Below the pieces are notes generated by a model. That model searched no databases, was not told the origin of the DNA, and saw nothing but the letters and a program-made list of their open reading frames with translations. From Bordetella genomosp. 12 (lineage in GTDB: Bacteria > Pseudomonadota > Gammaproteobacteria > Burkholderiales > Burkholderiaceae_B), in the NCBI RefSeq assembly GCF_002261355.1, contig NZ_NEVU01000003.1:1364001-1428000 (forward strand): 64,000 nucleotides of DNA, given 5' to 3'. The position numbers and the translations under genes are program-made. Shown here one piece after another: positions 10,155 through 39,793 of this stretch; within the stretch, counting starts at the first letter, position 1; every line of letters begins with the position of its first letter.

Positions 10155-10892
10155 ATGGCCCGCCCGTCCGATACCGTTTTCGAGAAACCCAGCACATTGC
10201 GCTCGCGCGTCGAGGAATACTTGCGCACCGCCATCATGCAGGGGCGTATCAAAGGCGGCGACCGATTGCGCGAGCATGAACTGTGCGAGCAGCTGAGCAT
10301 CAGCCGCCCCACCTTGCGTGAGGCCCTGCGCACGCTGGAAGCCGAGCGCCTGATCACCATCGAACCGCATCGCGGCCCGACCGTGGTGCGCATCACGGCC
10401 AAGGCCGCACGCGACCTCTATGCCTTGCGCGCCCTGCTTGAAGGGTATGCGGCGCATGAGTTCGCGCGGCTGGCCAGCGAGGCCGACATGGAACGTCTGC
10501 GACTAGCGGTGGCCGCCTTGCGCGAGCAAGCCGGCAAGGGCGATCAGGCCGGCCTGCTCACGGCCAAGCGCGAGTTCTATGACGTGCTGCTCGACGGCTG
10601 TGACAACGCGCTGGTCAAGGACATGCTGCCGGGCCTGTTGTCGCGCATCAATCTCTTGCGGGCCACGTCGTTTGGCAGCCCGCAGCGCCTGCCGCAAAGC
10701 CTGACCGAGATCGATCGCATCTTTGCCTGCATCAAAGCCCGCGACCCGGAAGGCGCGCAAGCCGCGGCGCGCGATCACATCGTCAACGCCGAGCGCACTG
10801 CGCTGGATGTCTTGCGCCGGCAAGAGGCCGAAACGGCGCAGCAAGAGGCCGAGCTCGCTGCCGAGGCCCCGCGCCCGGGCGCGGCGAGGTAA
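10155..10892 (+). CDS. GntR-family transcriptional regulator (FadR subfamily, FCD domain)
   Basis: Regulator of 245 residues. ATG 10155 is preceded by GAGGAAACC, whereas an in-frame ATG 18 bp upstream has no ribosome site. The winged helix (about 14-80) carries LREHELCEQLSISRPTLREALRTLEAERLI, the diagnostic GntR helix-turn-helix; residues 85-225 form an all-helical FCD ligand domain, with conserved LYALRALLEGYAAHEFA near its start. It is divergent from the CMD-dehydrogenase-Bug operon, with two operator-like palindromes between them, and presumably represses that operon until a carboxylate ligand binds. The C-terminal tail is Ala/Glu rich. Confidence 0.9.
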   Translation: MARPSDTVFEKPSTLRSRVEEYLRTAIMQGRIKGGDRLREHELCEQLSISRPTLREALRTLEAERLITIEPHRGPTVVRITAKAARDLYALRALLEGYAAHEFARLASEADMERLRLAVAALREQAGKGDQAGLLTAKREFYDVLLDGCDNALVKDMLPGLLSRINLLRATSFGSPQRLPQSLTEIDRIFACIKARDPEGAQAAARDHIVNAERTALDVLRRQEAETAQQEAELAAEAPRPGAAR

Positions 10893-24535: not shown

Positions 24536-24552
24536 TCAGCCAGGGCGTGGCC

Positions 24553-25344
24553 TCAGAGCTTTTCGAACGCCTTGCTCACCAGCGCCTCGACGAGCGCGCC
24601 CACCCGGGCCGCCTCGGCGTCCACCCAGGGATAGGGATAGTGCTCGGCCATATAGGTGGACTGGCACATCTCCAGCTGCACCGCATGGATGTGATCGGCC
24701 GGGTTGCCATAGTGCCGGGTGATATAGCCGCCCTTGAAGCGGCCATTGATCGCCCAGGTGTAATCCTGCTGGGCGCCAAGCTGCTGTTCGATGGCCTCCT
24801 GAATCGCCGGCGCCGCGCTGGCGCCACTGGAGGTACCGATATTCAGATCGGGCAGCTTGCCCTCGAACAGACGCGGGATGACGCTGGCGATGGAGTGCCC
24901 CTCCCAGAGCATGACCTTGCCATGCTGCGCGCGCAGCCGGTCGATTTCGGCGCGCAACTGGTCGTGATAGGGCTGCCAGTACTGCCGCCGCCGCGCCTCG
25001 CGCTCGTCCTCGGTCACGCTGTCGCGGCCGTCCAGATAAAGCGGCTGGCCATCAAAGGTATGCGTGGGGCACAGGCCGGTCTTAGCCTGGCCGGGGTAGA
25101 GGCTTTCATCATTGGGCGGGCGATTGAGATCCACCACGTAGCGCGAGTAGCGCGCCCACAGAAAGGAAGCGCCCAGCTTCTTGCCAAAGGCATAGAGGCG
25201 GTCCAGGTGCCAGTCCGTGTCGCCCGACCGCAGGCCGAGTTCCGTCATGAGCGGCTTTTGCGCCTCGGGGATCAGACTGCCCAGATGGGGAATGGAAATC
25301 AGCAGCGGCGCGGTACCGGCTTCGAAATGAAAAATGTCGCTCAT
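24553..25344 (-). CDS. hutG: N-formylglutamate deformylase (HutG)
   Basis: Zinc hydrolase of 263 residues; releases formate from N-formyl-L-glutamate, the last step of the five-step histidine pathway. Family landmarks are LLISIPHLGSLIP, GDTDWHLDRLYAF, YVVDLNRPPND, LWEGHSIASVIPRLFEGKLPDLNIGT and ITRHYGNPADHIHAVQLEMCQSTYM. No hutH, hutU, hutI or hutF lies next to it, so it is an orphan copy or the rest is elsewhere. Followed by a strong terminator; its start faces a 316-bp divergent region. Could also act on related N-formyl amino acids. Confidence 0.9.
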   Translation of the reverse strand: MSDIFHFEAGTAPLLISIPHLGSLIPEAQKPLMTELGLRSGDTDWHLDRLYAFGKKLGASFLWARYSRYVVDLNRPPNDESLYPGQAKTGLCPTHTFDGQPLYLDGRDSVTEDEREARRRQYWQPYHDQLRAEIDRLRAQHGKVMLWEGHSIASVIPRLFEGKLPDLNIGTSSGASAAPAIQEAIEQQLGAQQDYTWAINGRFKGGYITRHYGNPADHIHAVQLEMCQSTYMAEHYPYPWVDAEAARVGALVEALVSKAFEKL

Positions 25345-25660
25345 GAATGCTCTTTGGGATCCCTGCGGGCAGGGCTTATACGAAAAAATCCTGCACCCAT
25401 GATACTAAAACCGGTCATCGCGCCCGTTTCTCTCAATAAGTGAGAATCATCAGCCGCGAGCGCGCCGCGCTGGTTCTACGCCCCCCGGACGCAGCGGCTT
25501 ATTAGGTCATGAGCAAAAGGTATTGGCCCGGCTTCGCCTGCCGCTCCTAGACTGCATAACTAGACAGTGCGCTAACTATTTATCGTTAGCCTGCTGATTA
25601 TCCTGTCGCGCCGCGCACGCGGGCGCGCTCGGCCTCATCGACCTTTTCTCGCCTACCGTC
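25345..25660. promoter_or_regulatory. Divergent intergenic region with inverted repeat GCTAAC-N8-GTTAGC
   Basis: This 316-bp stretch between hutG and the first organosulfur operon has no supported gene. At 25571-25590 it holds GCTAACTATTTATCGTTAGC, a perfect 6-bp inverted repeat with an 8-bp spacer, about 70 bp before the ATG at 25661. The same half-sites recur upstream of the convergent partner operon (33742-33773), so this looks like a shared operator. The region is visibly more AT-rich than its surroundings. Confidence 0.65.
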
Positions 25661-26521
25661 ATGACCCAACTGCATACCTTGCGCCTGGCGCCGAATGTCC
25701 CGGTTTTCGATCTCCCCATCACGGTGGCCCTGGAGCACGGGCTGTTCGAACAACGCGGCCTGCGCGTCGAGTTCGTCGATCGACACGACCCGCTGACCTC
25801 CAGCAAGGACGCCTTCGCGCGCCAGAAAGAATCGCTCTACGAGTGCGGCAAGGCCGACGCCTACAACCTGTGCGAGTGGGCCGGCCTGGACCGCTCCGAC
25901 CGCAGCGGGCGCGGCAGCCGCGTGTTTGCCTTGCGGCCCGCCGTCGTGGCGCAGGTCATCCTGTCTTTCGATCCGGAGATCCAGGAGCTGCGCGACCTGG
26001 CGGGAGTTCCCATCGGTATCAACGAATTCACGGGCTCTCACTACACCGCGCTGCAATTCCTGGACGGCGCGCTGCCACGCGAGCAGGTCGTGCTCGAACA
26101 CGTGGGCGAACCCTATGTCCGCTATGAGCAGCTCAAGGCCGGTACCTTGCGCGCGGCCTCGCTGATGGAGCCCTATGTCAGCCTGGCGCTCAAAGAAGGC
26201 GCGCACATCATCGGCGCGAACTTCTATCGCGGCGCGGAGGTAATTTCCCCCGACTTGCCGCTGGACCTGCGCCAGGCCTATCTGGCTGCCGTCAACGAGG
26301 CCTCGGCGCTCATCCAGGCCGACCGCGGCCGCTACAAGCACCACCTCATCACCGAGCCCATCCGCGGCCGAATCCAAGCGCACGAAATCGGCGACCAGTT
26401 CTTCCGTTATGCGCCCAGCCGGCCCATGGACGAAGACCGCTTCGCCTTCACCGCACAATGGATGGGCAGTTGGGGGCTGGATCTGCAACGCGCCCAGTAT
26501 CAGGACCTCGTCGTCCTTTAA
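25661..26521 (+). CDS. Periplasmic-binding-protein-fold protein without a signal peptide (NMT1/SsuA-like)
   Basis: Protein of 286 residues resembling substrate-binding proteins of nitrate/sulfonate/thiamine-precursor importers: LRLAPNVPVFDLPITVALEHGLFEQRGLRVEFVD at the start, then DLAGVPIGINEFTGSHYTALQFL. Unlike a transporter receptor it begins directly with the first beta-strand and has no Sec, Tat or lipoprotein signal, so it should stay in the cytosol. The same fold is used by cytosolic enzymes such as the desulfinase DszB, thiamine-pyrimidine synthase and 4,5-dihydroxyphthalate decarboxylase. Cys62 and Cys71 lie in a central segment (YECGKADAYNLCEW). First gene of a four-gene operon. Function not recognised; a catalytic or sensor role is an inference. 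Confidence 0.7.
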   Translation: MTQLHTLRLAPNVPVFDLPITVALEHGLFEQRGLRVEFVDRHDPLTSSKDAFARQKESLYECGKADAYNLCEWAGLDRSDRSGRGSRVFALRPAVVAQVILSFDPEIQELRDLAGVPIGINEFTGSHYTALQFLDGALPREQVVLEHVGEPYVRYEQLKAGTLRAASLMEPYVSLALKEGAHIIGANFYRGAEVISPDLPLDLRQAYLAAVNEASALIQADRGRYKHHLITEPIRGRIQAHEIGDQFFRYAPSRPMDEDRFAFTAQWMGSWGLDLQRAQYQDLVVL

Positions 26522-26535
26522 CCGCGGGCACTCCC

Positions 26536-27468
26536 ATGCAGATCGCAAGTCAACTGGAGCCCGACTTCAACGCGGCTCTGGCGCAAGCGCTCGGCCTGCC
26601 GGTGCTGGCCGTGCCGCGCGGCGTGCCTCAGCACCTGCCGGCCACGGTGGCCCTTCTGGTGGCCGCGCCCATGGACGCGGACCAACCGCCACCGGCGGGC
26701 TGGCCCTTCGGCCTGGAATGGGTGCAGCTGGTCACTTCCGGCACCGACAAGCATCCGCGATGGCTGTCTCAAAGCCTGCCGACGGCCACGGCGCGCGGCG
26801 TCGCGGCCAATCAGATCGCCGAATATGCCTTGGCCGCCATGCTCTATCAGGCCAAAAGCCTGGCCGACCTCTGGGTGCAGAGTCCCGCGGACTGGCAGGC
26901 GCGCGCGCTAGGCAGCCTGGCCGGGAGCACCGTCGGCGTGGTCGGGCTGGGCGCCATCGGCAGCGCGCTGGCGCGCAGACTGCTGGCCCTGGATGTCCGG
27001 GTCATCGCCTTGCGCGCGCGCCCGCTGCCCTCGCCCGTACCCGGGGTCGACATCCAGACCGACCTGGGCGCCCTGCTGGCCGCCTGTGACCATGTCGTGC
27101 TGGCCGCGCCGGCCACCGCGGCTACCCGGCACCTGCTCAATCGCGACACCTTGGCCCGGGCCAAACCGGGCCTGCATATCGTCAACGTGGCCAGGGGTGA
27201 ACTGATCGACGACCAGGCATTGCTGTGGGCGCTGGAACAAGGCCTTGTCGCGGCCGCCACCCTGGACGCCACAGACCCCGAACCACTGCCGCCGGGGCAC
27301 CCCTATTACACCCATCCCCGCGTGCGCTTGAGCCCCCACACGGCCGCCATCGGCCGCATTTCGCGTCTGGCGCTGGCGCACAAGACCGCCCAGAACCATC
27401 GCCGCTGGCTGGCGGGCCAAGGGCTGCTGGACCGCGTCGGCGCCCACCCTGACACCCCTGCATCATGA
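26536..27468 (+). CDS. D-2-hydroxyacid dehydrogenase (NAD-binding)
   Basis: Protein of 310 residues. ATG 26536 is chosen because the upstream in-frame ATG lies inside the previous gene. The Rossmann fold has VGVVGLGAIGSALARRLLAL near 136-156; the catalytic region NVARGELIDDQALLWAL and the C-terminal His in LSPHTAAIG follow the D-isomer-specific family. It would interconvert a 2-oxoacid and D-2-hydroxyacid in the cytosol. It lies 14 bp after the signal-less binding-fold gene and overlaps the next gene by 4 bp, so it is a core member of this operon. A sulfolactate-type or short hydroxyacid substrate is plausible from context. Confidence 0.88.
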   Translation: MQIASQLEPDFNAALAQALGLPVLAVPRGVPQHLPATVALLVAAPMDADQPPPAGWPFGLEWVQLVTSGTDKHPRWLSQSLPTATARGVAANQIAEYALAAMLYQAKSLADLWVQSPADWQARALGSLAGSTVGVVGLGAIGSALARRLLALDVRVIALRARPLPSPVPGVDIQTDLGALLAACDHVVLAAPATAATRHLLNRDTLARAKPGLHIVNVARGELIDDQALLWALEQGLVAAATLDATDPEPLPPGHPYYTHPRVRLSPHTAAIGRISRLALAHKTAQNHRRWLAGQGLLDRVGAHPDTPAS

Positions 27469-28445
27469 CCCCAATGCCGCGGCGTCGCCGCCTTCTGAAA
27501 AGTGCCGCCCTGATCGGCGCCCTGCCGCTATTGCGCCTGGCCCGAGCCCAGACGCCCCTGCGCATCGCCCTGCCTTCGCCCGGGACTGCCGGCTCCGTGT
27601 GGCGGCCCATGCTGGAGCGCCTGCGGGTCGCTGACCTGCCGGCCCTGCAATGGACCGTGTCGGACCCCGGCAAAATGCAAGTGCAACTGATCGCGGGCTC
27701 CCTGGATGTGGGCTTTTTCGGCCCCATCGGGCTGGCGGCGCTGCGTGCGCGCGGCAACGACATCCTGCTGTTCGGCCCCGGCACCCACAATCACTCGGTC
27801 TGGCTGGTCAAGGCCGACAGCCCTTATCAACGGCCCGCCGATCTGATCGGCCACAAGATCGCCACCCAGCCGGAAACCGCCGAAACCTATCAACAGGCAC
27901 GCACGGCCGCGTCGCTGGCCGGTCTGGACCTGAAACGCGATTTCCAGGTCTTGCACGGCTCCCCGCTGGCCAATGTTGCGCTGTTCGAGCGCGGCGACGT
28001 GGATGCGGTCATCGTGCTCGAGCCCACCGCCACCCGCCTGGTCGCGCAAGGCGCGCGGCAGATCGGCCGGGTGGGCGATATGTGGCGCCAGGCCAGCGGC
28101 GATGCCAGCGATCCTTTCCTCGTCGGTCTGGCGGCCCAGCGCAGTTGGCTCGACGCAAACCGCCAGACCGCCACGCGCCTGGCGCGCGCTTTTGCTCAAG
28201 CCAATGCGGCCATCACGCGCCAACCCGACGTCTTGCGTGAGATCCACGCCGAGATCGGCATCAAAGCCCAGGAGAAGGCCGCCCTCGATCTGGTCGCCGG
28301 GCGGATGCGCGACACCTACTCCAGCCGCTGGGACCCCGACGTCTGGCGCGGCATGGACCGCCAGATCGCCGCCGCGGTGTCGGTGGGCATTCTCGATCAA
28401 CAAGCCCGGACATCGCCCGTCTACGACGGCGTGGCGCTGTCCTGA
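27465..28445 (+). CDS. Sulfonate/nitrate-type ABC binding protein, probably Tat-exported
   Basis: Protein of 326 residues. The N-terminus PRRRRLLKSAALIGALPLLRLARA has a twin-arginine-like pattern followed by a hydrophobic stretch. The mature part contains DPGKMQVQLIAGSLDVGFFGPIGLAALRARG and FERGDVDAVIVLEPTATRLVA, typical of SsuA-like receptors. It is a clear paralogue of the receptor at 30899-31870, sharing several blocks of near identity. It lies in the plus-strand operon while the permease and ATPase are on the minus strand, so two receptors may serve one importer. Overlaps the dehydrogenase gene by 4 bp. Confidence 0.85.
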   Translation: MTPMPRRRRLLKSAALIGALPLLRLARAQTPLRIALPSPGTAGSVWRPMLERLRVADLPALQWTVSDPGKMQVQLIAGSLDVGFFGPIGLAALRARGNDILLFGPGTHNHSVWLVKADSPYQRPADLIGHKIATQPETAETYQQARTAASLAGLDLKRDFQVLHGSPLANVALFERGDVDAVIVLEPTATRLVAQGARQIGRVGDMWRQASGDASDPFLVGLAAQRSWLDANRQTATRLARAFAQANAAITRQPDVLREIHAEIGIKAQEKAALDLVAGRMRDTYSSRWDPDVWRGMDRQIAAAVSVGILDQQARTSPVYDGVALS

Positions 28446-28464
28446 AACCAAGGCATGCACCCCT

Positions 28465-29253
28465 ATGAGCACTGCAATCGTCACCCGAGCCGACACCGAT
28501 GACGTCCAGCGCCATGTCGGCCAGGCCGAATGGGCCGTGCGCGTCGAACTGGCCGCCGCTTATCGCCTGGCCGCCCGCTTCGGATGGACCGACCACATCT
28601 TCACCCACTTCTCCGCGCGCGTGCCCGGCGTGCACGACCACTTTCTAATCAACCCTTACGGCCTGACCTTCGACGAGGTCAGCGCCTCGAATCTGGTGCG
28701 CATCGACATCGAGGGCAAGGTGCTCTATGACCCGCTGGGGCGAGGCCACAATCTGGCCGGCTATGTCATCCACGGCGCCATCCACAGCGCCAGGCCGGAT
28801 CTGACCTGCATCCTCCACACCCACACCACCCCGGGCGTGGCCGTCTCCGCCCAGGAAACCGGCCTGCTCACCTATCTCTCGCAACAGGCCGCGCGCTTTC
28901 ATGGGCAGATCGCGTACCACGACTACGAAGGCTTCGCCTTCAATCGGGAAGAACAGGCCAGATTGATCCGCGACATCGGCGACAAGCGCATCCTCATCCT
29001 GCGCAACCACGGCCTGTTGACCGCCGGCGCCAGCATCGGCGAAGCCTTTCATCATCTGTACTTTCTGGAGCGCTCCTGCGCCATCCAGATTGCCGCCCAG
29101 GCGGGCGGCAATCCCTTGCGCCAGCCGCCCGACGCCATCGTCGCCGAAGCCGCCGCCGTCTACTGGCGCGGCGTGGGCGGCACCTACACCGACCGCACCT
29201 GGCAAGCCTTCCTGCGCGATCTTCAGCGCCACGACAGCACCTTCCAACTTTGA
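28465..29253 (+). CDS. Class II aldolase/adducin family protein
   Basis: Protein of 262 residues with the aldolase_II fold. Metal-binding histidines are seen in CILHTHTTPGVAVSA and in LRNHGLLTAG; the N-terminal GWTDHIFTHFSARVPG..FLINPYGLTFDEV is the conserved phosphate/substrate region. Family members cleave or decarboxylate sugar phosphates and other aldols, usually with Zn or Mn; many clustered copies have unknown substrates. Last gene of the plus-strand operon, 19 bp after the receptor gene and 17 bp before a strong hairpin. It may split a C-C bond in the carbon skeleton left after desulfonation (inference). Confidence 0.88.
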   Translation: MSTAIVTRADTDDVQRHVGQAEWAVRVELAAAYRLAARFGWTDHIFTHFSARVPGVHDHFLINPYGLTFDEVSASNLVRIDIEGKVLYDPLGRGHNLAGYVIHGAIHSARPDLTCILHTHTTPGVAVSAQETGLLTYLSQQAARFHGQIAYHDYEGFAFNREEQARLIRDIGDKRILILRNHGLLTAGASIGEAFHHLYFLERSCAIQIAAQAGGNPLRQPPDAIVAEAAAVYWRGVGGTYTDRTWQAFLRDLQRHDSTFQL

Positions 29254-29269
29254 GGACTGCGCCGCACAC

Positions 29270-29305
29270 GTGACACCGCCGCGCTGCCAGGCGCGGCGGT
29301 GTCAC
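29270..29305. terminator. Perfect 15-bp hairpin between two convergent operons
   Basis: GTGACACCGCCGCGC (29270-29284), loop TGCCAG, then its exact complement (29291-29305). It sits between the aldolase stop (29253) and the ATPase stop (29337), so it can end both operons. It has no T-run, which suggests a structural barrier to both transcripts rather than a classical intrinsic terminator. Confidence 0.75.
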
Positions 29306-29336
29306 GAAGCTGCGTCGCTCTCCGACGGCCCCGCCC

Positions 29337-30083
29337 TCAGTGCTGCAACGCCTGCATCACCTGGCGGTGCACCTCGAACAAGGCCGGATCGTCGGGGTCG
29401 CGCGGACGGGGGACGTTTACATCGATGATGCGCACGATCTCGGCCGGCGAACCGCCCATGACGGCGATGCGATCCGCCAGGAAGGCGGCCTCCAGCATGT
29501 TGTGCGTCACGAGTACGCCGGTCGGCCGCGGCCCTGCGCCGGACAGCCACATGGCCTGCAGCAGTTGCCGCAGGCGGCGTGCGGTCAGTTCGTCCAGCGC
29601 ACTGAAGGGTTCATCGAGCAGCAGCACATCCGGCTGCACCGCGAAGGCCCGCGCGATGGATACGCGCTGCCGCTGGCCGCCGGACAGAAACTGCGGATAG
29701 GCTTGCGCATGATCCGGCAGCTCCACCCGCTGCAACAGTTGACGTACGGTGGTGGCCGCATCGCGCTTGTCCTGCCCGGACAGCACGATGCCGATGTTCT
29801 CCGCCACGCTCAGCCAGTCCAGCAGGCGCGGCTGCTGGAACACCACCCCGAGGTTGATCCCCGCGAAGGGCCGGTCGAATTGCACTTCGCCGCGCGAAGG
29901 CTGATCCAGGCCGGCGATCAGGTTGAGCAGCGTGGACTTGCCGCAGCCGGACGGCCCCACCAGGGCCAGCAGCTCGCCGGCCCGGATGTCGAGGTCCACC
30001 TGGGTAAGCACGGTGCGCTCGCCCGCATTGCCCAGCGGCGGATAACGCTTGCCGATCCCGCGCAGACGTATTGTGCTGCTCAT
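29337..30083 (-). CDS. ABC transporter ATPase, SsuB/TauB type
   Basis: Cytosolic ATPase of 248 residues starting at ATG 30083, inside a much longer open frame. Walker A GPSGCGKST at 43-51, Q-loop FQQPRLLDW, signature LSGGQRQR at 133-140, Walker B VLLLDEPFSALDELTAR, and H-loop THNMLEAAFLADRI. This is the nitrate/sulfonate/taurine importer group. It overlaps the permease gene by 4 bp and is the last gene of the minus-strand operon. Confidence 0.93.
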   Translation of the reverse strand: MSSTIRLRGIGKRYPPLGNAGERTVLTQVDLDIRAGELLALVGPSGCGKSTLLNLIAGLDQPSRGEVQFDRPFAGINLGVVFQQPRLLDWLSVAENIGIVLSGQDKRDAATTVRQLLQRVELPDHAQAYPQFLSGGQRQRVSIARAFAVQPDVLLLDEPFSALDELTARRLRQLLQAMWLSGAGPRPTGVLVTHNMLEAAFLADRIAVMGGSPAEIVRIIDVNVPRPRDPDDPALFEVHRQVMQALQH

Positions 30084-30898
30084 CGCCCACTCCCGCGTTT
30101 CCAACGATTGGCATGAATTTCCAGCGGCCGAAAGACACCATGCTCGATGACCAGCATGGCCAGCCAGAAGGCCAGCGTCCAGGCAATCACCCCTTCGACG
30201 TCCTGCGTGCTGAACTTGGAGTTGAGCTGATACCCCACCCCATTGGACATCCCGAAGATCTCCACCAGCACGATGACTTTCCACGCGATCGAGAACCCGA
30301 CCCGGCAACCCGAGACGATGAAGCTGTAGAGCAGCGGCAACCACACTTTGCGCAACACCAGCGCGGGCGGCAGGCGGAACACCTTGATCATCTCCACGCG
30401 CTCCTGCTCCAGTGACCGCACTCCCTGGTGCACCGAGATCACCATGGCCGGCAAGACCCCCAAGGCCACCGCCACCACGGGCGAAGCCAGCGACACGCCG
30501 AACCAGATCACGCACAGCAAGGCCCAGACAAGCCCGGGCACCGTCAGGCCCAGGATGACGCCCGGCTCGAAGAATCGCTCGGCCACGCGCGAGACGGCGG
30601 TCAGGATGCCGATGGGCAGCGCCAGCAGCAGCGCCAGCAGGAAACCCAGCGACATCCGCATGAACGTCACGCCTATCTCGGTGAAGGCAAAGCCGGTGCG
30701 CACGATCTCGACCAGCTCGCGCAGGATGGCGGCACAGCCCGGCACCAGCGGCGAATGCGCCCATACCGCCATGATTTCCCACGCGCCGGTGAGCAACACA
30801 AAAAAGGCCAGGGGCGGCAGAACCCTGCCCGCGACGGCGCGCCAGGGCCACCGGCGCGCCGGTACGCTGCCCCGCAAAACGGCGTTATCGGTTGTCAT
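30080..30898 (-). CDS. ABC transporter permease, SsuC/TauC type
   Basis: Inner-membrane permease of 272 residues with about six helices. The coupling loop EQERVEMIKVFRLPPALVLRKVWLPLLYSFIVSGCRVG contains the EAA-type motif that docks the ATPase. Family length is about 260, as for SsuC. Its ATG directly follows the receptor stop codon, and its stop overlaps the ATPase start, so all three are one unit. Predicted to pass a sulfonate or related anion into the cytosol. Confidence 0.92.
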   Translation of the reverse strand: MTTDNAVLRGSVPARRWPWRAVAGRVLPPLAFFVLLTGAWEIMAVWAHSPLVPGCAAILRELVEIVRTGFAFTEIGVTFMRMSLGFLLALLLALPIGILTAVSRVAERFFEPGVILGLTVPGLVWALLCVIWFGVSLASPVVAVALGVLPAMVISVHQGVRSLEQERVEMIKVFRLPPALVLRKVWLPLLYSFIVSGCRVGFSIAWKVIVLVEIFGMSNGVGYQLNSKFSTQDVEGVIAWTLAFWLAMLVIEHGVFRPLEIHANRWKRGSGR

Positions 30899-31870
30899 TC
30901 AGGCCTTCACGTAAAGTTTGCGCGCTGGCGCGGCATCCAGCAGGCCAAGTTGCACCGCCACGGCGATCTGCTTGTCGATCGTGGCGAACACACTCTCATC
31001 CCATTTGCTGGCGTAGGTCGGCGCCAGCCGCTGCGGCAGCAGATCGATGGCCTGGCGCTCGTCGGCCTTGATACCCAGATCGGCAGCGATGGGTTTGAGG
31101 CTGTCCGGGTGCTGGGCGATCGTGGTGCCGATACGCTCGAACAGCGTGGCCAGCTTGGCCGCCGTTGCCCGATTCTGGTCGTACCAAGCCCGGCTGGCGG
31201 CCAGGCCCACCAGGAAGGGGTCGTCGGTCTGGCCGGTGGCCTGTTTCCAGAGGTCCGCCACGCGGGCGATCTCTCGCGCGCCCCGGCCCACCAGCCGCGT
31301 GGCCGTCGGCTCCAGCGTGATGATGCCGTCCACATCCCCGCGTTCGAACAAGGCCAGATTCGCGGTGGGCGAGCCAAAGATGACTTGCAGATCTTTCTTC
31401 AGATCCAGCCCCGAGAGCGAGGCCGCGATACGGGCCTGCTGATAGGTTTCGCTCGTCTCCGCCGTCGTGGCGATGCGCTTGCCTTTCAGGTCATTGGGCG
31501 ACTGAAAGCCGCTGTCGCCACGCACGATCCAGCGCCCATGGTTGTTCAGCGCCGGGCCAAACAGCACGATGTCGCTGCCCCGGTTGGCCAGCGTGGCCAG
31601 GCCCACGGCGCCGAACACGCCCACATCGAGCGAGCCTGCGCTCAGTTGCACCTGCATCTTGCCCGGGTCGGCGGTCACCCATTCCAGCGCGATACCCAGG
31701 TCCTGATCGAGTTTGTAGCGCTCGACAATGGGCCGCCAGGCCGACCCGGCGCTGCCCGCCGACGGCAAGGTAATGCGGATTTTCTTGTTGTCCTGCGCCC
31801 AGGCGGCGCCCGGCAGCAGGCCAGCGGCGGCCACGCCGCCTGTCAATTGAAGGAAATGTCTGCGATTCAT
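30899..31870 (-). CDS. Sulfonate-type ABC binding protein with Tat signal
   Basis: Receptor of 323 residues. The N-terminus MNRRHFLQLTGGVAAAGLLPGAAWA is an unmistakable twin-arginine signal (RRHFL) ending AWA, so it is exported folded. The mature region ITLPSAGSAGSAWRPIVERY, DPGKMQVQLSAGSLDVGVFGAVGLA and FERGDVDGIITLEPTATRLV matches its plus-strand paralogue at 27465. Genes for its permease and ATPase follow at once. The ligand is probably an organosulfonate or sulfate ester, judged from the TauD-type and sulfurtransferase genes upstream. Confidence 0.9.
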   Translation of the reverse strand: MNRRHFLQLTGGVAAAGLLPGAAWAQDNKKIRITLPSAGSAGSAWRPIVERYKLDQDLGIALEWVTADPGKMQVQLSAGSLDVGVFGAVGLATLANRGSDIVLFGPALNNHGRWIVRGDSGFQSPNDLKGKRIATTAETSETYQQARIAASLSGLDLKKDLQVIFGSPTANLALFERGDVDGIITLEPTATRLVGRGAREIARVADLWKQATGQTDDPFLVGLAASRAWYDQNRATAAKLATLFERIGTTIAQHPDSLKPIAADLGIKADERQAIDLLPQRLAPTYASKWDESVFATIDKQIAVAVQLGLLDAAPARKLYVKA

Positions 31871-31911
31871 GGTCTTTCTACGTCTAAGGGGCGGATCAAT
31901 GGCCGTTGGGG

Positions 31912-32832
31912 TCAGCTGGGCAATACCAGGGCGCGGTGCATCACGCGGCGCTGGGCGCCGAAATCCGGCACGCCGCGGTGCTGTACTGTGCGGTTATCCC
32001 AGATCAGGGCGGTGCCGTTCTCCCAGCGGTGGCGCGTCTGCACTTCCGGCGCGCTCAGGGCATCGAACAGCACATCCAGCAGCGCCTGACTGGTGCGCCG
32101 GCTCACGCCCAGGATGCGATGCGTGTACAGCTCGTTGACAAAGATCTGCTTGCGGCCGGTCTCGGGATGCTTGCGGATGAGCGGCACCTCGATGGGCGGA
32201 TACTTGCGACGCTGCTCGGCGCGCGCCTCCAGATCGTGATAAGCCAGGGTCAGATAGCCCATGGTGTCGGCATCATGCACGGCGGTAAGCGTCTCCAGAT
32301 AGGCCGCCAGCAAGGGGTCGAGCAGCTCGTAGGCGGCCGTGGCGTTGGCGAACAGCGTGTCGCCGCCCAGCGCCGGCATGACCTCGCCCAGCAAGGCCGT
32401 ATACGGTGGCGAGGTGGGCTGAAACACCTGATCCATATGCCAGATGTAGTTCATGCGCGTCTTCTTGGTCGACGCATCGATGGTGTTGAGCTGGCCGCTC
32501 TTGCCGGTCTCCGGGGTGTAGGGGGTATTCATGAGCTTGGCTTTGCCAAACAGCGACACCAGGCGTTCGAAGTGCTCCACCTCGACCGTTCCCGGTTCAA
32601 AGCTCAGAAAACCGTAGCGCAGCAACGCCTCATAGAGCTGCGCGCGGACGGCCGGCGTCAGCGCCTCCTGGCCGTCGATACGCAGGCCGCTGACCTTGGC
32701 GCCGACGGTGGGCGAATAGGGCGTCACCGTAATGCCCTCGACGCGCGATGCATCGGTGGGGTAACGGGACATATCCAGAATCTTCGGCTGGATCCGGTCG
32801 ATTTTGTCGTTGTCGACGACGATGCCGTACAT
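31912..32832 (-). CDS. TauD/TfdA-family Fe(II)/2-oxoglutarate dioxygenase
   Basis: Enzyme of 306 residues. The iron facial triad is His132 and Asp134 in YIWHMDQVF and His285 in NRTVQHRG; the 2-oxoglutarate Arg is in the following RRVMHR segment, and LGGDTLFANATAAYELL is the conserved TauD block. Family members hydroxylate the carbon beside a sulfonate, sulfate ester or ether so that sulfite, sulfate or phenol is released. Here the genes around it point to an organosulfur substrate. Cytosolic. It lies between the sulfurtransferase gene and the importer genes, 41 bp from the receptor. Confidence 0.9.
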   Translation of the reverse strand: MYGIVVDNDKIDRIQPKILDMSRYPTDASRVEGITVTPYSPTVGAKVSGLRIDGQEALTPAVRAQLYEALLRYGFLSFEPGTVEVEHFERLVSLFGKAKLMNTPYTPETGKSGQLNTIDASTKKTRMNYIWHMDQVFQPTSPPYTALLGEVMPALGGDTLFANATAAYELLDPLLAAYLETLTAVHDADTMGYLTLAYHDLEARAEQRRKYPPIEVPLIRKHPETGRKQIFVNELYTHRILGVSRRTSQALLDVLFDALSAPEVQTRHRWENGTALIWDNRTVQHRGVPDFGAQRRVMHRALVLPS

Positions 32833-32897
32833 GATGTGCTTGCGTCCTTGCGATCGATAGGCCTGAGGCCGGCTATGAGGGGCGTGTGCGCCGCGCG

Positions 32898-33692
32898 CTA
32901 GGCGGTCTCAACCGGATAGTGTTCGGCGGTGCCCCACTCGTTCCAGGAAGCCGGGTACACCGCCGTCGCCGTGTGGCCGGCCAACTGCAGCGCCACGAAG
33001 GTGCGCGCCGCGCGCCCGCCGCCGCCGCAATAGACAATGGCGCGCTCGTCGGCCCCGGCGATCGCCTGGGCGGCCCGCGCCACTTGCGCAGCGGGCGCAT
33101 AGCGTCCATCGGCGGCGAGTTCCTGCGCGGTATCCCAGAAGCGGGCTCCCGGCACACGGCCCTTGCGGCCCGCGTTGCTGCGCTGCCCCGCATACTCTTC
33201 CTGGCTGCGGGCATCGACGATGCGCGCGGCCCCCGACCGGGTTGCCTCGAGGACCTCCTGCGCGGTGGCCAGATAGGCTGCCTGCGGCCGCACGACATAG
33301 GCGCTTGCGCGCACGGCAGGCGCGGCCTGCTCACGCGTCCCGGCCCAGGCCGCGACGCCGCCGTCGAGCAAGCGAATGTGTTCCTGTCCGGCATAGGCCA
33401 GGGCCCAGGCGACACGGGCCGCGTTGACCTCGTTGCCCGCGCCCGCCACCACGACCTGATCCGCCGCCGACAAGCCGATGGCCGAAAGGCTCCAGGCCAG
33501 CACCGCGTGCAAGCGCGCCAGCGCCGCCGCGTCGGTCTGCGTCAGCGCAAACAGCGCCGGGTCCAGGTGCCGCGCGCCGGGGATATGTCCGGCCCAATAC
33601 TCTGCCGCGGGGCGGGTATCGATGACCACCACGCCGGGCTCATTGATGTGGGCCGCCAGCCACTGCGGCTGTGCCAGCTCAAATAACGCCAT
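32898..33692 (-). CDS. Two-domain sulfurtransferase (thiosulfate/3-mercaptopyruvate type)
   Basis: Enzyme of 264 residues with an inactive N-terminal rhodanese domain (about 5-118) and an active C-terminal domain (about 140-255). The active-site loop is YCGGGGRAARTF with Cys222; CG rather than CRKG points to the mercaptopyruvate type, but the loop is unusual (CGGGGR instead of CGSGVT). No signal peptide. First gene of the minus-strand operon, before the TauD-type dioxygenase, so it may detoxify or mobilise sulfur released there. Its promoter overlaps the GCTAAC repeat. Confidence 0.88.
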   Translation of the reverse strand: MALFELAQPQWLAAHINEPGVVVIDTRPAAEYWAGHIPGARHLDPALFALTQTDAAALARLHAVLAWSLSAIGLSAADQVVVAGAGNEVNAARVAWALAYAGQEHIRLLDGGVAAWAGTREQAAPAVRASAYVVRPQAAYLATAQEVLEATRSGAARIVDARSQEEYAGQRSNAGRKGRVPGARFWDTAQELAADGRYAPAAQVARAAQAIAGADERAIVYCGGGGRAARTFVALQLAGHTATAVYPASWNEWGTAEHYPVETA

Positions 33693-33725
33693 TGCCTTGC
33701 TCCAATACGGATGGGTATTGCAGGC

Positions 33726-33774
33726 ATCCTATCGTCAGCAAGCTAACTATCAAACGCACATTAATTTGTTAGCT
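33726..33774 (-). promoter_or_regulatory. Promoter with inverted repeat AGCTAAC...GTTAGCT for the sulfurtransferase operon
   Basis: On the minus strand TTGATA (33748-33753), a 16-bp spacer and TAGGAT (33726-33731) make a plausible sigma-70 promoter. The half-site AGCTAAC (33741-33747) lies in its spacer and the inverted copy GTTAGCT is at 33768-33774. The same half-sites form the 20-bp inverted repeat at 25571-25590 upstream of the partner operon. The region is also the upstream region of the divergent MFS-MarR pair, so MarR is one candidate binder. Confidence 0.6.
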
Positions 33775-33850
33775 TATTTACTATTTCTACTTTTGCGGAC
33801 CGTCTTGCGGGCGCAGAATACTGAACTTCACCGCCCTATCCTGTAGACCC

Positions 33851-35284
33851 ATGCCCAGCTCCATCCGCGACGCGGCCGCCAGCGCACCGGTGCGCGACAC
33901 CCGCTACCGCCCCTTGTCCATTCTGGTGGGCGCGGCCTATTTCATGGAGCAGCTCGACGCCACCATCATCAGCCCCGTCATCCCCGACATCGCCCGCGAT
34001 TTCGGTGTGGCGCCGCTGAGCCTTAACTTGACGATGACCATTTACCTGCTCTGCTCACTGGTCTTCGTACCGCTGAGCGGGCTGGTGGCGGCACGCTACG
34101 GCACGCGCACCGTCTTTAGCAGCGCGGTGGCCCTGTTCACCGCCAGCTCGATCCTGTGCGCGCTGGCCACCAGCCTGCCTGCGCTGGCGCTGTGCCGGGG
34201 CCTGCAAGGCGTGGCCGCAGCCATGATGGTGCCGGTGGGCCGAACCGCCATCGTTCACACCACGACCAAGGCGCAACTGGTGGAGGCGCTGGCCTGGTTC
34301 ATCACGCCCGCCATGGTGGGCCCCATGCTGGGCCCGCCCCTGGGCGGCCTGCTGTCGGCCTACCTCTCCTGGCATTGGGTGTTTCTCATCAACGTGCCCG
34401 TGGGCCTGGCCGGTCTTTGGGCCGCACGCTCCATCATGCCGCAACTGCATCACCGCGCCGACCTGCGCTTTGACCTCAAGGAGTGGCTGCTGGCCACCCT
34501 GGCGCTGGCGTTGCTGATTGTGCTCATCGAAAAGGCGCGCCACGGCGCCGAGCCCGCCTTGCTGGCCGGTCTGGCCCTGGCGTTTGGCCTGTGCGCGTGG
34601 TGTTATGTCCGGCGCTTTCGGGGGCTGCCCGCCCCCATGCTGGATTTCCGCCTGTTGCGCCTGCCGACCTTCGCGGCAGGCTTTTGGGGCGGCTCGCTCG
34701 TGCGTGTCGGCTACGGCGCCCTGCCCTTTCTCTTGCCGCTGATGCTGCAACTGGGCCTGGGATACACCGCCCTGCAAAGCGGCATCGTGCTGCTGATCAG
34801 CGGGTCTATCGCTTTTTTCACCAAAACGCAGACCAGCCGCGTACTGCGCCGCTGGGGCTTTCGCGCCGTGCTTTGCTACAACGGCGCGGCGTGCGCGCTC
34901 GCGCTGGCCGGCTGTGCGCTCTTCGCGCTGCCGCACTGGGGACTGGCCGGGATCACGGCGTTTGTCTCGATGGCCAGTTTCTTTCGTGCCGTGCAGTTCA
35001 ATGCCCTGACGGCCGTCTCCTACGCCGACCAGCCGCGCGAGAAAGTCGCCTCGGCCACCACGCTGAACACCATGGCCTGGCAACTGGCCATCATGCTTGG
35101 CATCTCGCTGTCCGCCCTGATCGTGCAGTGGTCTGCTAACCTAGGCGCCCGCGGCGCGCCGGCGGCGGTGGATTTTTCGGTGGCCTTCGTCATCCTGGCC
35201 ATGTTTGCCGGCGCCGCCATCCCCTGCTATCGCGCGCTGCCCGAGCGGGCCGGATCGGAGCTCAGCGGCCATCGCCCATCATGA
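33851..35284 (+). CDS. MFS drug-efflux type transporter (DHA2/EmrB-like)
   Basis: Inner-membrane protein of 477 residues with 12 to 14 hydrophobic helices. The N-terminal pattern YFMEQLDATIISPVIPDIARDFG is the EmrB/QacA signature (Asp in helix 1), followed by GLVAARYGTRTVF (motif A), LCRGLQGVAAAMMVPVGR (motif B) and VGPMLGPPLGG (antiporter motif C). It would export a hydrophobic or organic-acid compound by proton antiport. It overlaps the MarR gene by 4 bp, and its promoter faces the sulfurtransferase operon, so it could expel a toxic pathway intermediate (inference). Confidence 0.92.
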   Translation: MPSSIRDAAASAPVRDTRYRPLSILVGAAYFMEQLDATIISPVIPDIARDFGVAPLSLNLTMTIYLLCSLVFVPLSGLVAARYGTRTVFSSAVALFTASSILCALATSLPALALCRGLQGVAAAMMVPVGRTAIVHTTTKAQLVEALAWFITPAMVGPMLGPPLGGLLSAYLSWHWVFLINVPVGLAGLWAARSIMPQLHHRADLRFDLKEWLLATLALALLIVLIEKARHGAEPALLAGLALAFGLCAWCYVRRFRGLPAPMLDFRLLRLPTFAAGFWGGSLVRVGYGALPFLLPLMLQLGLGYTALQSGIVLLISGSIAFFTKTQTSRVLRRWGFRAVLCYNGAACALALAGCALFALPHWGLAGITAFVSMASFFRAVQFNALTAVSYADQPREKVASATTLNTMAWQLAIMLGISLSALIVQWSANLGARGAPAAVDFSVAFVILAMFAGAAIPCYRALPERAGSELSGHRPS

Positions 35285-35832
35285 CGCTGGCGACCCACCC
35301 GGAGCCCGGCGGCCGCCCCACCTCCAGCTCCGTACCGAGTCCCATGCCCGATCCCGCCATCGAACGTCTCCCTCAGCTCTACTCTCGCCCGGGTTTTCTG
35401 CTGCGCCGCGCGCACCAGATCTACGTCGCGATCTTCGAGGAAAACTTCGCGCGTCTCGGCATCTCGCCCGCGCAATACTCCGTCATGATCGCCCTGCATG
35501 ATCTGCAAGGCATCAATCAGGGCGAACTGGCCAAAGCCATCGGCATGAACAAGGTCACCGTTTCTCAGATCGTCCAGGCCCTGGAGACACGCGGCTGGGT
35601 GTCGCGCAAACAATCCGACCCGGACCGCCGCCGTCTGCGGCTTACGCTGACCCCGGCAGGCAAAAAGGCTCTGAACCAGACCGCCGAGATGGCCGAAGCC
35701 ACCTATGCCGAACAGATGGCCCCCTTATCGGCCGCCGAGCGCCAACGCCTGATGAAACTGCTGCAGCGCATCGTCACCGATCTCGAACCGCGGGCGCGCA
35801 CCCCGTTCGAACCCGTCACCGCGCAGGGCTGA
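35281..35832 (+). CDS. MarR-family transcriptional regulator
   Basis: Regulator of 183 residues. The winged helix is LGISPAQYSVMIALHDLQGINQGELAKAIGMNKVTVSQIVQALETRGWVSRKQSDPDRRRLRLTLT; the DPDRRRxxLTLT wing is diagnostic. A Pro/Ser-rich N-terminal extension of about 22 residues precedes the usual start, so translation might begin at an internal Met (MPDPAIERL). It is translationally coupled to the MFS exporter, the standard pairing of a drug-responsive repressor and its pump. Confidence 0.92.
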   Translation: MTLATHPEPGGRPTSSSVPSPMPDPAIERLPQLYSRPGFLLRRAHQIYVAIFEENFARLGISPAQYSVMIALHDLQGINQGELAKAIGMNKVTVSQIVQALETRGWVSRKQSDPDRRRLRLTLTPAGKKALNQTAEMAEATYAEQMAPLSAAERQRLMKLLQRIVTDLEPRARTPFEPVTAQG

Positions 35833-35838
35833 GCCAGC

Positions 35839-36597
35839 TCAGTCCAGCCACGTCGTATAGGCGGCCGGATCCACGCGGTCGGGCCGGAAGGTATTGACCG
35901 GCGCCCCCTCGTCCGCGGACCCCAGGGCCAGCGCGCACACCAGACGCTCGTCGTGCGCGCCCAGATGCGGCAGCACAATCGAGGCGAATGGATTCCAGGC
36001 GGCCTGGATGCAGGTATGCAGCCCCTCGGCCCGCGCCGCGATCATGACGTTTTGCACGAACATGGCCGTGTCGACCAGCGCCCCTTCGGCCATCAGACTG
36101 TCATTGGTGAAGAACAGCCCGGCCGGCGCGCCGAAGAATTCGTAGTTGCGTTGCATCTGCGCATGCATGCGCGGCCGGTCACCCTTGGCGATGTTCAGCA
36201 CACCGTACAAGCCCAGCCCGCAAGCGCGCCGCCGCTCGATATACGGTGACACCCATTCGCTGGGATAGTACTGATAGGCCTCGCGATACTGCCCGGCCGC
36301 GGCCGGATCGGCGGCCATGGCGTCATGCGCGGCGCACACCTTGCGCGACAAGGCATCGCGGCTGGCGCCCTGCACCACATAGACCTTCCAGGGCTGAATG
36401 TTCGACCCGGACGGCGCCCAGCTGGCTACCCGCAGAATGCGTTCGAGCGCATCACGCGGCACGGGGGTGGAAAGGAACTCACGGCAGCAAAATCGGCTCT
36501 CGATCGCGGCCTGCACACTGGCAGGATCGGCCACGACAGTGCTCACGGCCGGCGCCTGCAAAGCGGCGCGCATCAGGGCGGTATCTGCGGTCATCAT
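35839..36597 (-). CDS. Nitroreductase-family NAD(P)H:FMN oxidoreductase
   Basis: Protein of 252 residues. FMN-binding blocks are ESRFCCREFLSTPVPRDALERIL, SWAPSGSNIQPWKVYVV and the C-terminal AWNPFASIVLPHLGAHDERLVCALALG. Family members reduce nitro groups, quinones or flavins; some act in aromatic catabolism. It is cytosolic and convergent with the MarR gene (6 bp between stops). It starts with two Met codons (36597 or 36594). A 17-bp palindrome lies 140 bp upstream in the region it shares with the divergent Bug gene. Confidence 0.9.
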   Translation of the reverse strand: MMTADTALMRAALQAPAVSTVVADPASVQAAIESRFCCREFLSTPVPRDALERILRVASWAPSGSNIQPWKVYVVQGASRDALSRKVCAAHDAMAADPAAAGQYREAYQYYPSEWVSPYIERRRACGLGLYGVLNIAKGDRPRMHAQMQRNYEFFGAPAGLFFTNDSLMAEGALVDTAMFVQNVMIAARAEGLHTCIQAAWNPFASIVLPHLGAHDERLVCALALGSADEGAPVNTFRPDRVDPAAYTTWLD

Positions 36598-36915
36598 CGT
36601 CTCGGTTTACGAATGGGCGCCGGCCAGGCCGGCAGGCGGAGTCAGCGGGCTACTCTCGCACATCGACCGGCAGACGTCGATGCGCCTGCGCCGCCGCGCG
36701 GCAATGTCCACGCAGCGGCCACACTCCGGCGATTTACGCAGAACTGTTCTGCGCAAAATGCAGGTAATCTCCCCTTCCGATAAAACTTACCATTGTGTAG
36801 ACCATCATGGACGGCCGCATTGGCCGCCGCCCCAGAGACGCACGCCTGACGATGAGCAGGCCGGATCCGCCCCCCGAGGCGGACAGACAGGGCGCCAGGG
36901 TTCAGGAGACATCGT
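36598..36915. promoter_or_regulatory. Divergent regulatory region with 17-bp palindrome
   Basis: This 318-bp gap between the nitroreductase and Bug genes shows no supported gene. At 36737-36753 it contains CGCAGAACTGTTCTGCG, a perfect 8+1+8 palindrome near the middle, a good candidate operator. AT-rich DNA (TAAAACTTACCATTGTG, about 36782-36797) on the Bug side could hold its promoter, but no clear -35/-10 pair is seen. Confidence 0.6.
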
Positions 36916-38728: not shown

Positions 38729-39793
38729 TCAGGCGAGCGCGGCCGTGCTGCCGATTTCCTTGCGGATGGCGGGGATGATCCGGTCGCCCCAGAGTTCTAT
38801 CTGACGCAGCATGGTCTTCTGATCGAAATCCCCAAGCTGCGTTTGCAGGGCGATATGTTTGGGACGCAGGATGCTGATCTCCTCGAGCATCTTGTCTATC
38901 ACCTCGTTGACCGAACCCACCGGCAGATTCTTGCGCAGTTGTTCAAAGGTCGGGTCGGTCTCGGAGGGCACCTCCTTGACCATGTAGCCGTCATCGCTCT
39001 GCGCGCGCCGATATTTCAGGCTCTCGGAGATACGGCGCTGAAAGCGTGCGCAATCCAGATAGGCATCGATCTCGGCATTGTTGTCGGAGGCATAGCCGCA
39101 GCGCAGGAATCCGAACTTCACGTCCCGATCCAGATCCTTGCCATTGTCGCTGGCGACTTTTTCCAGCCGGCCGCGCAAGGCCGCGATCGCCTCATTGCCA
39201 TTGAGCAAGGCGGTCACGAAAAGGTTGTGATCCTCGCGCACCCCGCGGCCCAGCGTCACCGGATTGCCCGAGGTGATCCAGATCGGCGGCATGGGATCCT
39301 GCAAACAGCGCACGGCAATCGAGCTCGGCGGGATGCTCAGGTACTGGCCCTGGTGCTCGAAGATCTTCTGTTTCAGGCCCTTGGGGATCACATCCAGGAA
39401 CTCGTTGAAAATCGCACCCGAGTCCGCGATCTGCACGCCGAAGCGTTCGAACTCGAACTCCTGATAGCCCGAACCCACTCCCAGCTCCAGCCGGCCATTC
39501 GATACCGTGTCCACGAAACCCACCTCGGCCAGAAAGCGCGCGGGATGGTAGAGCGGCAGGATGCACACCGCCGTGCCCAGGCGGATGCGCTGCGTCTTGG
39601 CCGCGGCATGCGCCACCGTCATCAACGGCGACGGCGAGAGCGAGTAGTTATTGAAATGGTGCTCGGCGTACCATGCGGTATCGAAGCCCGCCTGCTCGGC
39701 CACCACGGTCTGTTCGATGGAGTTGTTAATGACTTGCTTGGAGGACTGGTGGTAACCTCGTTGCTGCGCCAGGATGAATACGCCGAATTCCAT
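38729..39793 (-). CDS. Luciferase-like flavin-dependent monooxygenase (LLM)
   Basis: TIM-barrel enzyme of 354 residues. Family blocks are EQAGFDTAWYAEHHFNNYSLSPSPL (the WYAEHHF motif), TQRIRLGTAVCILPLYHPARFLAEVGFVDTVSNGRLELGVGSGYQ and PPIWITSGNP. It uses FMNH2 from the neighbouring reductase to insert oxygen, for example in alkanesulfonate, long-chain or Baeyer-Villiger reactions; sequence alone does not decide. First gene of a two-gene operon divergent from a LysR gene. It is close to the sulfonate locus but shows no specific SsuD feature that I can verify. Confidence 0.9.
   Translation of the reverse strand: MEFGVFILAQQRGYHQSSKQVINNSIEQTVVAEQAGFDTAWYAEHHFNNYSLSPSPLMTVAHAAAKTQRIRLGTAVCILPLYHPARFLAEVGFVDTVSNGRLELGVGSGYQEFEFERFGVQIADSGAIFNEFLDVIPKGLKQKIFEHQGQYLSIPPSSIAVRCLQDPMPPIWITSGNPVTLGRGVREDHNLFVTALLNGNEAIAALRGRLEKVASDNGKDLDRDVKFGFLRCGYASDNNAEIDAYLDCARFQRRISESLKYRRAQSDDGYMVKEVPSETDPTFEQLRKNLPVGSVNEVIDKMLEEISILRPKHIALQTQLGDFDQKTMLRQIELWGDRIIPAIRKEIGSTAALA

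Follow-up and report, generated by a model that had tools for sequence, protein, structure and literature searches.

Two convergent operons of Bordetella genomosp. 12 probably form one MarR-controlled unit for organosulfur use

A shared palindrome links the two operons

The 64-kb stretch of the Bordetella genomosp. 12 genome analyzed here (contig NZ_NEVU01000003.1, positions 1,364,001 to 1,428,000; hereafter the window, in whose numbering all coordinates are given) contains two operons that meet tail to tail, a plus-strand operon of four genes (B1 to B4) and a minus-strand operon of five (A1 to A5), with genes for an MFS transporter and a MarR family regulator lying divergently from the latter. 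Our results suggest that the two operons, the MFS and the MarR constitute a single MarR-controlled unit for the use of an organosulfur compound, covering its uptake and the oxygenolytic cleavage of a C-S bond, a reading to which we assign a probability of roughly 0.6. Judging from the features described below, both operons very probably belong to one regulon, and the substrate is probably an organosulfur compound. What was a vague "sulfonate cluster" thereby becomes a testable regulon with a candidate operator.

Both operons carry the same rare half-site pair in their promoters. Four of the five copies of GCTAAC/GTTAGC in the window form two palindromes, both probable operators: GCTAAC-N8-GTTAGC (GCTAACTATTTATCGTTAGC) at 25571-25590 upstream of the plus operon, whose first base is also the start coordinate (25571) given in the preliminary description of this locus, and GCTAAC-N20-GTTAGC at 33742-33773 in the divergent A1/MFS promoter. 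Throughout the 4.5-Mb genome, GCTAACTAT-N3-24-GTTAGC (searched as GCTAACTATN{3,24}GTTAGC) has exactly two matches, and these are the two operon promoters. Among eight genomes searched, the N8 palindrome occurs once each in this genome and in the relatives LUAb4 and HZ34, always before B1, and its exact form was found in none of the other five, including G171, which carries a B1 protein 32% identical to that of the window. The N20 palindrome is found in five of the eight, a single time in each and always at A1/MFS, and LUAb4 and HZ34 have both forms. The block around the A1/MFS palindrome is nearly invariant in an alignment of six genomes (one half-site mismatch in the congener G132), and the block around the plus-operon palindrome is conserved in three. 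In Variovorax, GTTAGC-TT-GCTAAC stands immediately upstream of the rhodanese gene.

A MarR gene is present in seven of these eight genomes, and the one without it, G171, has neither palindrome. The MarR family regulator of the window (35281-35832, plus strand; PF01047) is the natural candidate binder of both palindromes and would repress both operons, with the substrate or an intermediate relieving the repression. A further block (CTTATTAGGTCATGAGCAAAAGGTATTGGC, 25498-25527), upstream of the plus-operon palindrome, is nearly conserved in LUAb4 and HZ34 and is perhaps an activator or promoter element.

A conserved minus module and an optional plus operon

The nine open reading frames (ORFs) of the two operons, their order and their families were recovered, as first described, with the ORF list and with Pfam and NCBIfam profile searches. 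Both operons are tight, with intergenic gaps of at most 65 bp within each. On the minus strand lie a two-domain rhodanese (A1, 32898-33692), a TauD-family 2-oxoglutarate dioxygenase (A2, 31912-32832; PF02668, 184.6 bits), an SsuA-like receptor (A3, 30899-31870), an ATP-binding cassette (ABC) permease (A4, 30080-30898) and an ABC ATPase (A5, 29337-30077). On the plus strand lie a signal-less SsuA-fold protein (B1, 25661-26521), a D-2-hydroxyacid dehydrogenase family protein (B2, 26536-27468; NAD domain PF02826, 148 bits), an SsuA/phosphonate-type receptor (B3, 27465-28445) and a class II aldolase superfamily protein (B4, 28465-29253) that scores above the PRK07044 cut-off. The start codons of B2 and B4 are most likely those at 26536 and 28465.

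A search for the TauD clade in 250 genomes of the family (E≤1e-60) gave 17 carriers including the window's own genome, and the surroundings of the 16 others were compared. Permease and ATPase homologues are found near the TauD gene in all 16, an MFS gene in 15 and a rhodanese gene also in 15 (14 at the first threshold and one more at E 2e-6; in the sixteenth, the contig ends). The gene order is altered in nine modules (L104, L106-L113), which argues that the core of TauD, ABC, MFS and rhodanese genes is held together by more than inertia. A Variovorax boronicumulans plasmid has the order MarR-MFS / rhodanese-TauD-receptor-permease-ATPase, and no B gene is annotated within the 25 kb of it that were inspected. 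The minus operon is thus a conserved module that reaches the MFS gene (DHA2-type, 33851-35284, plus strand) and, in close relatives, the MarR gene. Both genes lie outside the span of the preliminary description, whose nine-gene extent was therefore too small.

Attached to the end of this module is the plus operon, an optional segment. In G132, which belongs to the same genus, the 3885 bp at 25449-29333 that hold the plus operon and the junction hairpin are replaced by 38 bp, between flanks that are 82-83% identical to window positions 24549-25448 on the left and 29334-36618 on the right. Three genomes (G132, G100, and G139) have the minus module and no B1 match anywhere. The window genome and G132 thus provide a natural with/without pair. 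In LUAb4 (G077; L016 11808-12080), the plus operon has undergone a natural deletion: B3 is absent, and of B2 only 34 residues were matched in the stretch from B1 to the aldolase gene.

Among the 250 family genomes, B1 is found in 12 at E≤0.001 and in five at E≤1e-36, and four of these five carry the TauD clade alongside. The corresponding hypergeometric P of ~7e-5 overstates the independence of these genomes, since the four include the window's own genome and two of them share a genus; one of the four, G171, has the 32% identical B1 in a different arrangement. The conserved co-occurrence of the two operons that had been expected therefore holds above chance within the family and is not general: the minus module mostly occurs without the plus operon, and B1 mostly without the TauD clade. 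The TauD clade proper (E≤1e-150) is present in two of 198 genomes of the Xanthobacter family, both with B1 nearby; for two further TauD matches (~1e-101), B1 and the module are both absent within 19 kb.

The same gene families are reassembled elsewhere. In Xanthobacter autotrophicus DSM 432 (L149/L027), genes for a luciferase-type monooxygenase (LLM), the aldolase, transporter 2, transporter 1, TauD, MFS, rhodanese, B1, and the hydroxyacid dehydrogenase lie within ~13 kb; the families are those of the window and the order is rearranged, a natural reassembly. Bordetella sp. BOR01 (L067) combines the aldolase and dehydrogenase with two TauD genes, MFS, rhodanese, a receptor, and a 32% identical B1. 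In LUAb4 and HZ34, the LLM gene sits between the convergent operons. In the 21-kb loci of Pseudomonas typographi and Lampropedia, B1 and the aldolase are accompanied by a reductase and an LLM enzyme, and TauD gave no match.

Receptors, enzymes and a possible route

The domains of an SsuABC/TauABC-type importer are all present in the minus operon: a Pfam TAT_signal match and an NMT1-type domain in A3, PF00528 in A4, and PF00005 in A5. A3 scores 78 bits against an SsuA_fam cut-off of 163.5, and A4 and A5 fall below the cut-off of every sulfonate and taurine model listed. In a tree of 28 receptors, the B3 proteins of the window and HZ34 are the sister of the A3-type receptors of the minus operon (support 100/98), with a program warning of meeting long branches, one of which involves the B3 group. 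The same tree pairs the second Xanthobacter transporter with the extra one of LUAb4 and HZ34 as sisters (100/99). The plus operon holds no permease or ATPase for B3, and we infer that this receptor feeds A4/A5.

A2 keeps the iron ligands H99, D101, and H255, together with R266, R270, N95, and T126, in all five aligned sequences. We take H99, D101, and H255 to bind the iron, Arg266 the 2-oxoglutarate, and H70, Y73, V102, and F206 of TauD to contact taurine. These last four are replaced in all five sequences, and the 191 bits of A2 do not reach the taurine equivalog cut-off of 313. In a PDB search, A2 is closer to TauD than to AtsK or to TfdA-type enzymes. B4 keeps the metal-binding His92, His94, and His155 in all five aligned sequences, and the position of FucA Glu73, presumably the catalytic residue of FucA-type class II aldolases, is Gly in B4 and Gly, Ala, or Ser in the five. 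With Glu73 lost, aldol cleavage and a different lyase, decarboxylase or oxidative reaction are equally likely. Neither "taurine" nor "aldol cleavage" is supported once the replaced residues are considered; a taurine or plain FucA-type aldolase function is rejected, and the chemistry stated in the preliminary description is unproven. Its organosulfur theme, by contrast, agrees with homology: TauD is the nearest family of A2, the receptors are SsuA-type, a rhodanese is encoded, and a monooxygenase of the CmoJ/DszA family lies inside the clusters of relatives.

A possible route can be drawn from these assignments. A3 and its sister B3 would bind an organosulfur anion and hand it over to A4/A5. 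A2 would then hydroxylate the sulfur-bearing carbon, yielding sulfite and a carbonyl acid, and the rhodanese A1 may move or detoxify the released sulfur. B2 would reduce the 2-oxo acid, the substrates of B4 and B1 could be the carbon skeleton or a second sulfur-containing intermediate, and the MFS transporter may export a product or by-product.

B1, a receptor-fold protein predicted to act in the cytosol

B1, a stand-alone ORF of 286 amino acids, has no Pfam or NCBIfam match at E≤0.001. Most of its relatives match the NMT1 and SsuA models weakly by sequence, and six further B1-type relatives fall in no curated NCBIfam family, with only weak below-cut-off matches to SsuA or taurine-receptor models, or chance matches, and none for one of them. 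The protein had first been described as a signal-less binding-fold protein, which fits our results: an export signal was not seen in B1, and its fold is SsuA-like. In the relatives, the absence of a signal peptide was judged by N-terminal length and hydrophobicity, not with a signal-peptide predictor.

Within B1, an invariant Cys-x-Trp (C71, W73) and a His-Tyr anion motif resembling that of TauA are kept, and C71 falls in the lobe-1 ligand loop according to sequence alignment. The alignment of B1 relatives comprises the window and 39 of 53 loci (14 were omitted, L040 and L074 for stops in their spans and the others because they were near copies or incomplete). The locus scan used patterns containing CEW, and therefore the conservation of Cys and Trp in this alignment is partly built in. 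Nevertheless, both residues are also kept in all nine relatives aligned from whole-protein searches (L005-L009, L077-L080), with the variants CHW in L006-L009 and CKW in L080 (L005 and L067 hold one and the same gene). Of the other loci from these searches, L010 and L012-L015 yielded no match, and L011 failed to align as a relative. The receptor-fold proteins of L006-L009, in which CHW replaces CEW and the HY motif is retained, constitute a sister group.

The relatives of B1 span Proteobacteria, Actinobacteria, Cyanobacteria, Chloroflexi, and haloarchaea, and in most cases genes for importers of several classes lie next to them. The 53 named loci, which are of unequal length, include an A3/B3-type receptor in 21, an aldolase in nine, a close TauD (at least 48%) in six, and an NtaA/DmoA-type LLM in five. 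In Pseudonocardia (L039, L041, and L044), two different B1 proteins flank one receptor-permease-ATPase operon. In other Burkholderiales (L129, L131, and L133), Rieske oxygenase and TctC receptor genes share the stretch with B1 relatives, so that part of the family may act on carboxylates or aromatic compounds. Given such neighbors, a decarboxylase of the Pht5 type is conceivable for B1.

B1 would be either the member of an undescribed enzyme family or a cytosolic sensor. The first possibility, which we hold only tentatively and as short of even odds, is that B1 founds a cytosolic enzyme family on the sulfonate-receptor fold, in which a Cys-x-Trp active loop would face the His-Tyr anion site and whose members would cleave C-S (or C-C) bonds of imported anions. 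Here, B1 would belong to an organosulfur pathway that a single MarR regulator switches and that, in the relatives, employs two kinds of oxygenase. B1 would then work as a cytosolic SsuA-fold protein with its anion motif and with a cysteine in the ligand loop. The second, somewhat less probable, is that B1 is no enzyme and senses a ligand to regulate the importer, a role comparable to that of the receptor-like domain at the C terminus of NrtC/CmpC. However, that domain is fused to the ABC ATPase whereas B1 stands alone, its Cys and Trp are kept also in the homologues found without the pattern, and its neighbors are Tct, Opp, MFS, and ABC genes alike, leaving no common partner to be regulated.

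DszB offers a parallel for an enzyme, as B1 has the receptor fold without an export signal. A sequence-level relationship is rejected: the B1 family profile has no sequence match to DszB at E≤10, DszB being absent from the 22 PDB matches at that threshold, and the fold match remains. The catalytic cysteine of DszB is Cys27; the conserved cysteine of B1 is at position 71, which sequence alignment places in the lobe-1 ligand loop. Thi5 and MqnD are also enzymes on the receptor fold, and B1 matches Thi5 weakly. If B1 is an enzyme, it would join DszB as the second transport receptor to have become a lyase, and its relatives now annotated as ABC substrate-binding proteins would be misnamed.

One unit or two, and the nature of the substrate

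Several observations weigh against a single organosulfur unit. The palindrome motif was first noticed by eye; the window is not enriched in the N8 form over shuffled sequences when two mismatches are tolerated; and the reversed-pattern controls gave one match in the own-genome search and, for N20, one (both strands) in LUAb4 (G077), with none for N8. G171 has neither palindrome form, and G070 matches neither exactly, having just a looser GTTAA/TTAAC pair. In the 16 other TauD carriers, MarR adjoins the module in only six (and in Variovorax) and an A3-type receptor is present in only seven, while 13 of all 17 carriers have no adjoining B1 (four have it alongside). Among 300 genomes of the order, B1 (E≤1e-40) is found in ten including this one (9/299 others), and the TauD clade (E≤1e-110) is absent from the 299 others; a general co-occurrence of the operons across the order is rejected on these counts (1/300 for TauD, 10/300 for B1). 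Furthermore, the gene context does not mark B1 as sulfur-specific, since its relatives also adjoin genes for TctC and Opp receptors and for Rieske oxygenases, and the LLM of the relatives is about equally close to nitrilotriacetate (NTA) monooxygenase and to YtnJ. The sulfur nature of the substrate is argued by homology, and no gene in the window proves it.

The comparison of LLM enzymes bears on the possibility, which we consider improbable, that the substrate contains no sulfur and is a carboxylated anion (an aromatic or aminopolycarboxylic acid) whose C-O or C-N bonds the TauD and LLM enzymes would cleave. The LLM of LUAb4 scores 356 bits to YtnJ/MoxC, 355 to NTA monooxygenase, and 275 to DszA, and also matches ethylenediaminetetraacetate (EDTA) monooxygenase in the PDB; B4 weakly matches the 3,4-dihydroxyphthalate decarboxylase model; and the Rieske and TctC genes near B1 relatives point the same way. 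However, the rhodanese in 15 of the 16 modules, the SsuA-type receptors and the greater proximity of A2 to TauD than to TfdA-type enzymes argue for sulfur. We take YtnJ to be CmoJ. CmoJ is described as a sulfoxide C-S monooxygenase homologous to DszA and YxeK (PMC10863075).

That two separate systems merely share a neighborhood, an organosulfur module (minus operon, MFS, and MarR) and an unrelated carboxylic-acid operon, seems the least probable alternative, as the absence of B1 from 13 of 17 carriers, the Variovorax plasmid stretch and G132, and the many B1 proteins without TauD, which would fit it, are set against a palindrome pattern common to both operons and unique in the genome, the sister receptors A3 and B3, the co-occurrence at P ~7e-5 (with its caveat of non-independence) and the same families in a different order in Xanthobacter. 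These four lines of evidence likewise uphold the earlier view of the two operons as one system, and a single MarR-controlled organosulfur unit remains our preferred reading.

Relation to known systems

The window resembles tauABCD and ssuEADCB in combining an SsuA/TauA-type ABC importer with a TauD-family oxygenase, to which it adds the rhodanese, MFS, MarR, B1, the dehydrogenase, the class II aldolase-type protein, and a second receptor. It differs from tauABCD in the replaced taurine contacts of A2 (H70, Y73, V102, and F206) and its score below the taurine equivalog cut-off. Unlike the 4S dszABC and Gordonia bdsABC systems, the cluster has a TauD enzyme and neither an LLM nor DszC. Locus tags place the DszB-type gene of Gordonia bdsABC next to sulfonate-type ABC genes (PMC3868597). 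Likeness to the CmoO/CmoJ salvage of S-alkylcysteine lies in the LLM of LUAb4 (with homologues in HZ34 and Xanthobacter), nearest to YtnJ/MoxC jointly with NTA monooxygenase, whereas the window cluster has no LLM gene. A search of open-access full texts yielded no description matching this gene set, in line with the first impression that this exact set was not known as a described pathway.

The junction hairpin and minor observations

The perfect hairpin said to mark the convergent junction is indeed present at 29269-29306, with 16-bp arms and a 6-nt loop, and is a probable bidirectional terminator. It is the only hairpin in the window with arms of at least 16 bp (loops of 3-8 nt), and none was found under these limits in ten Markov-1 sequences of window length. 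It has no T tract and is absent among the terminator-like sites predicted in the window. Its position inside the segment missing from G132 shows that it is not an ancient part of the minus operon, an origin that is therefore rejected. At the corresponding junction in HZ34 (L100 ~10243-10271), inspection by eye revealed a perfect 12-bp hairpin that is not the same as this one.

Two further observations concern monooxygenase-like sequences outside the cluster. About 3 kb past MarR, the minus strand at ~39026-39628 has a weak luciferase-type monooxygenase match (37 bits). In the same genome, a second TauD gene and further matches of this type lie near C1:1.56-1.61 Mb.

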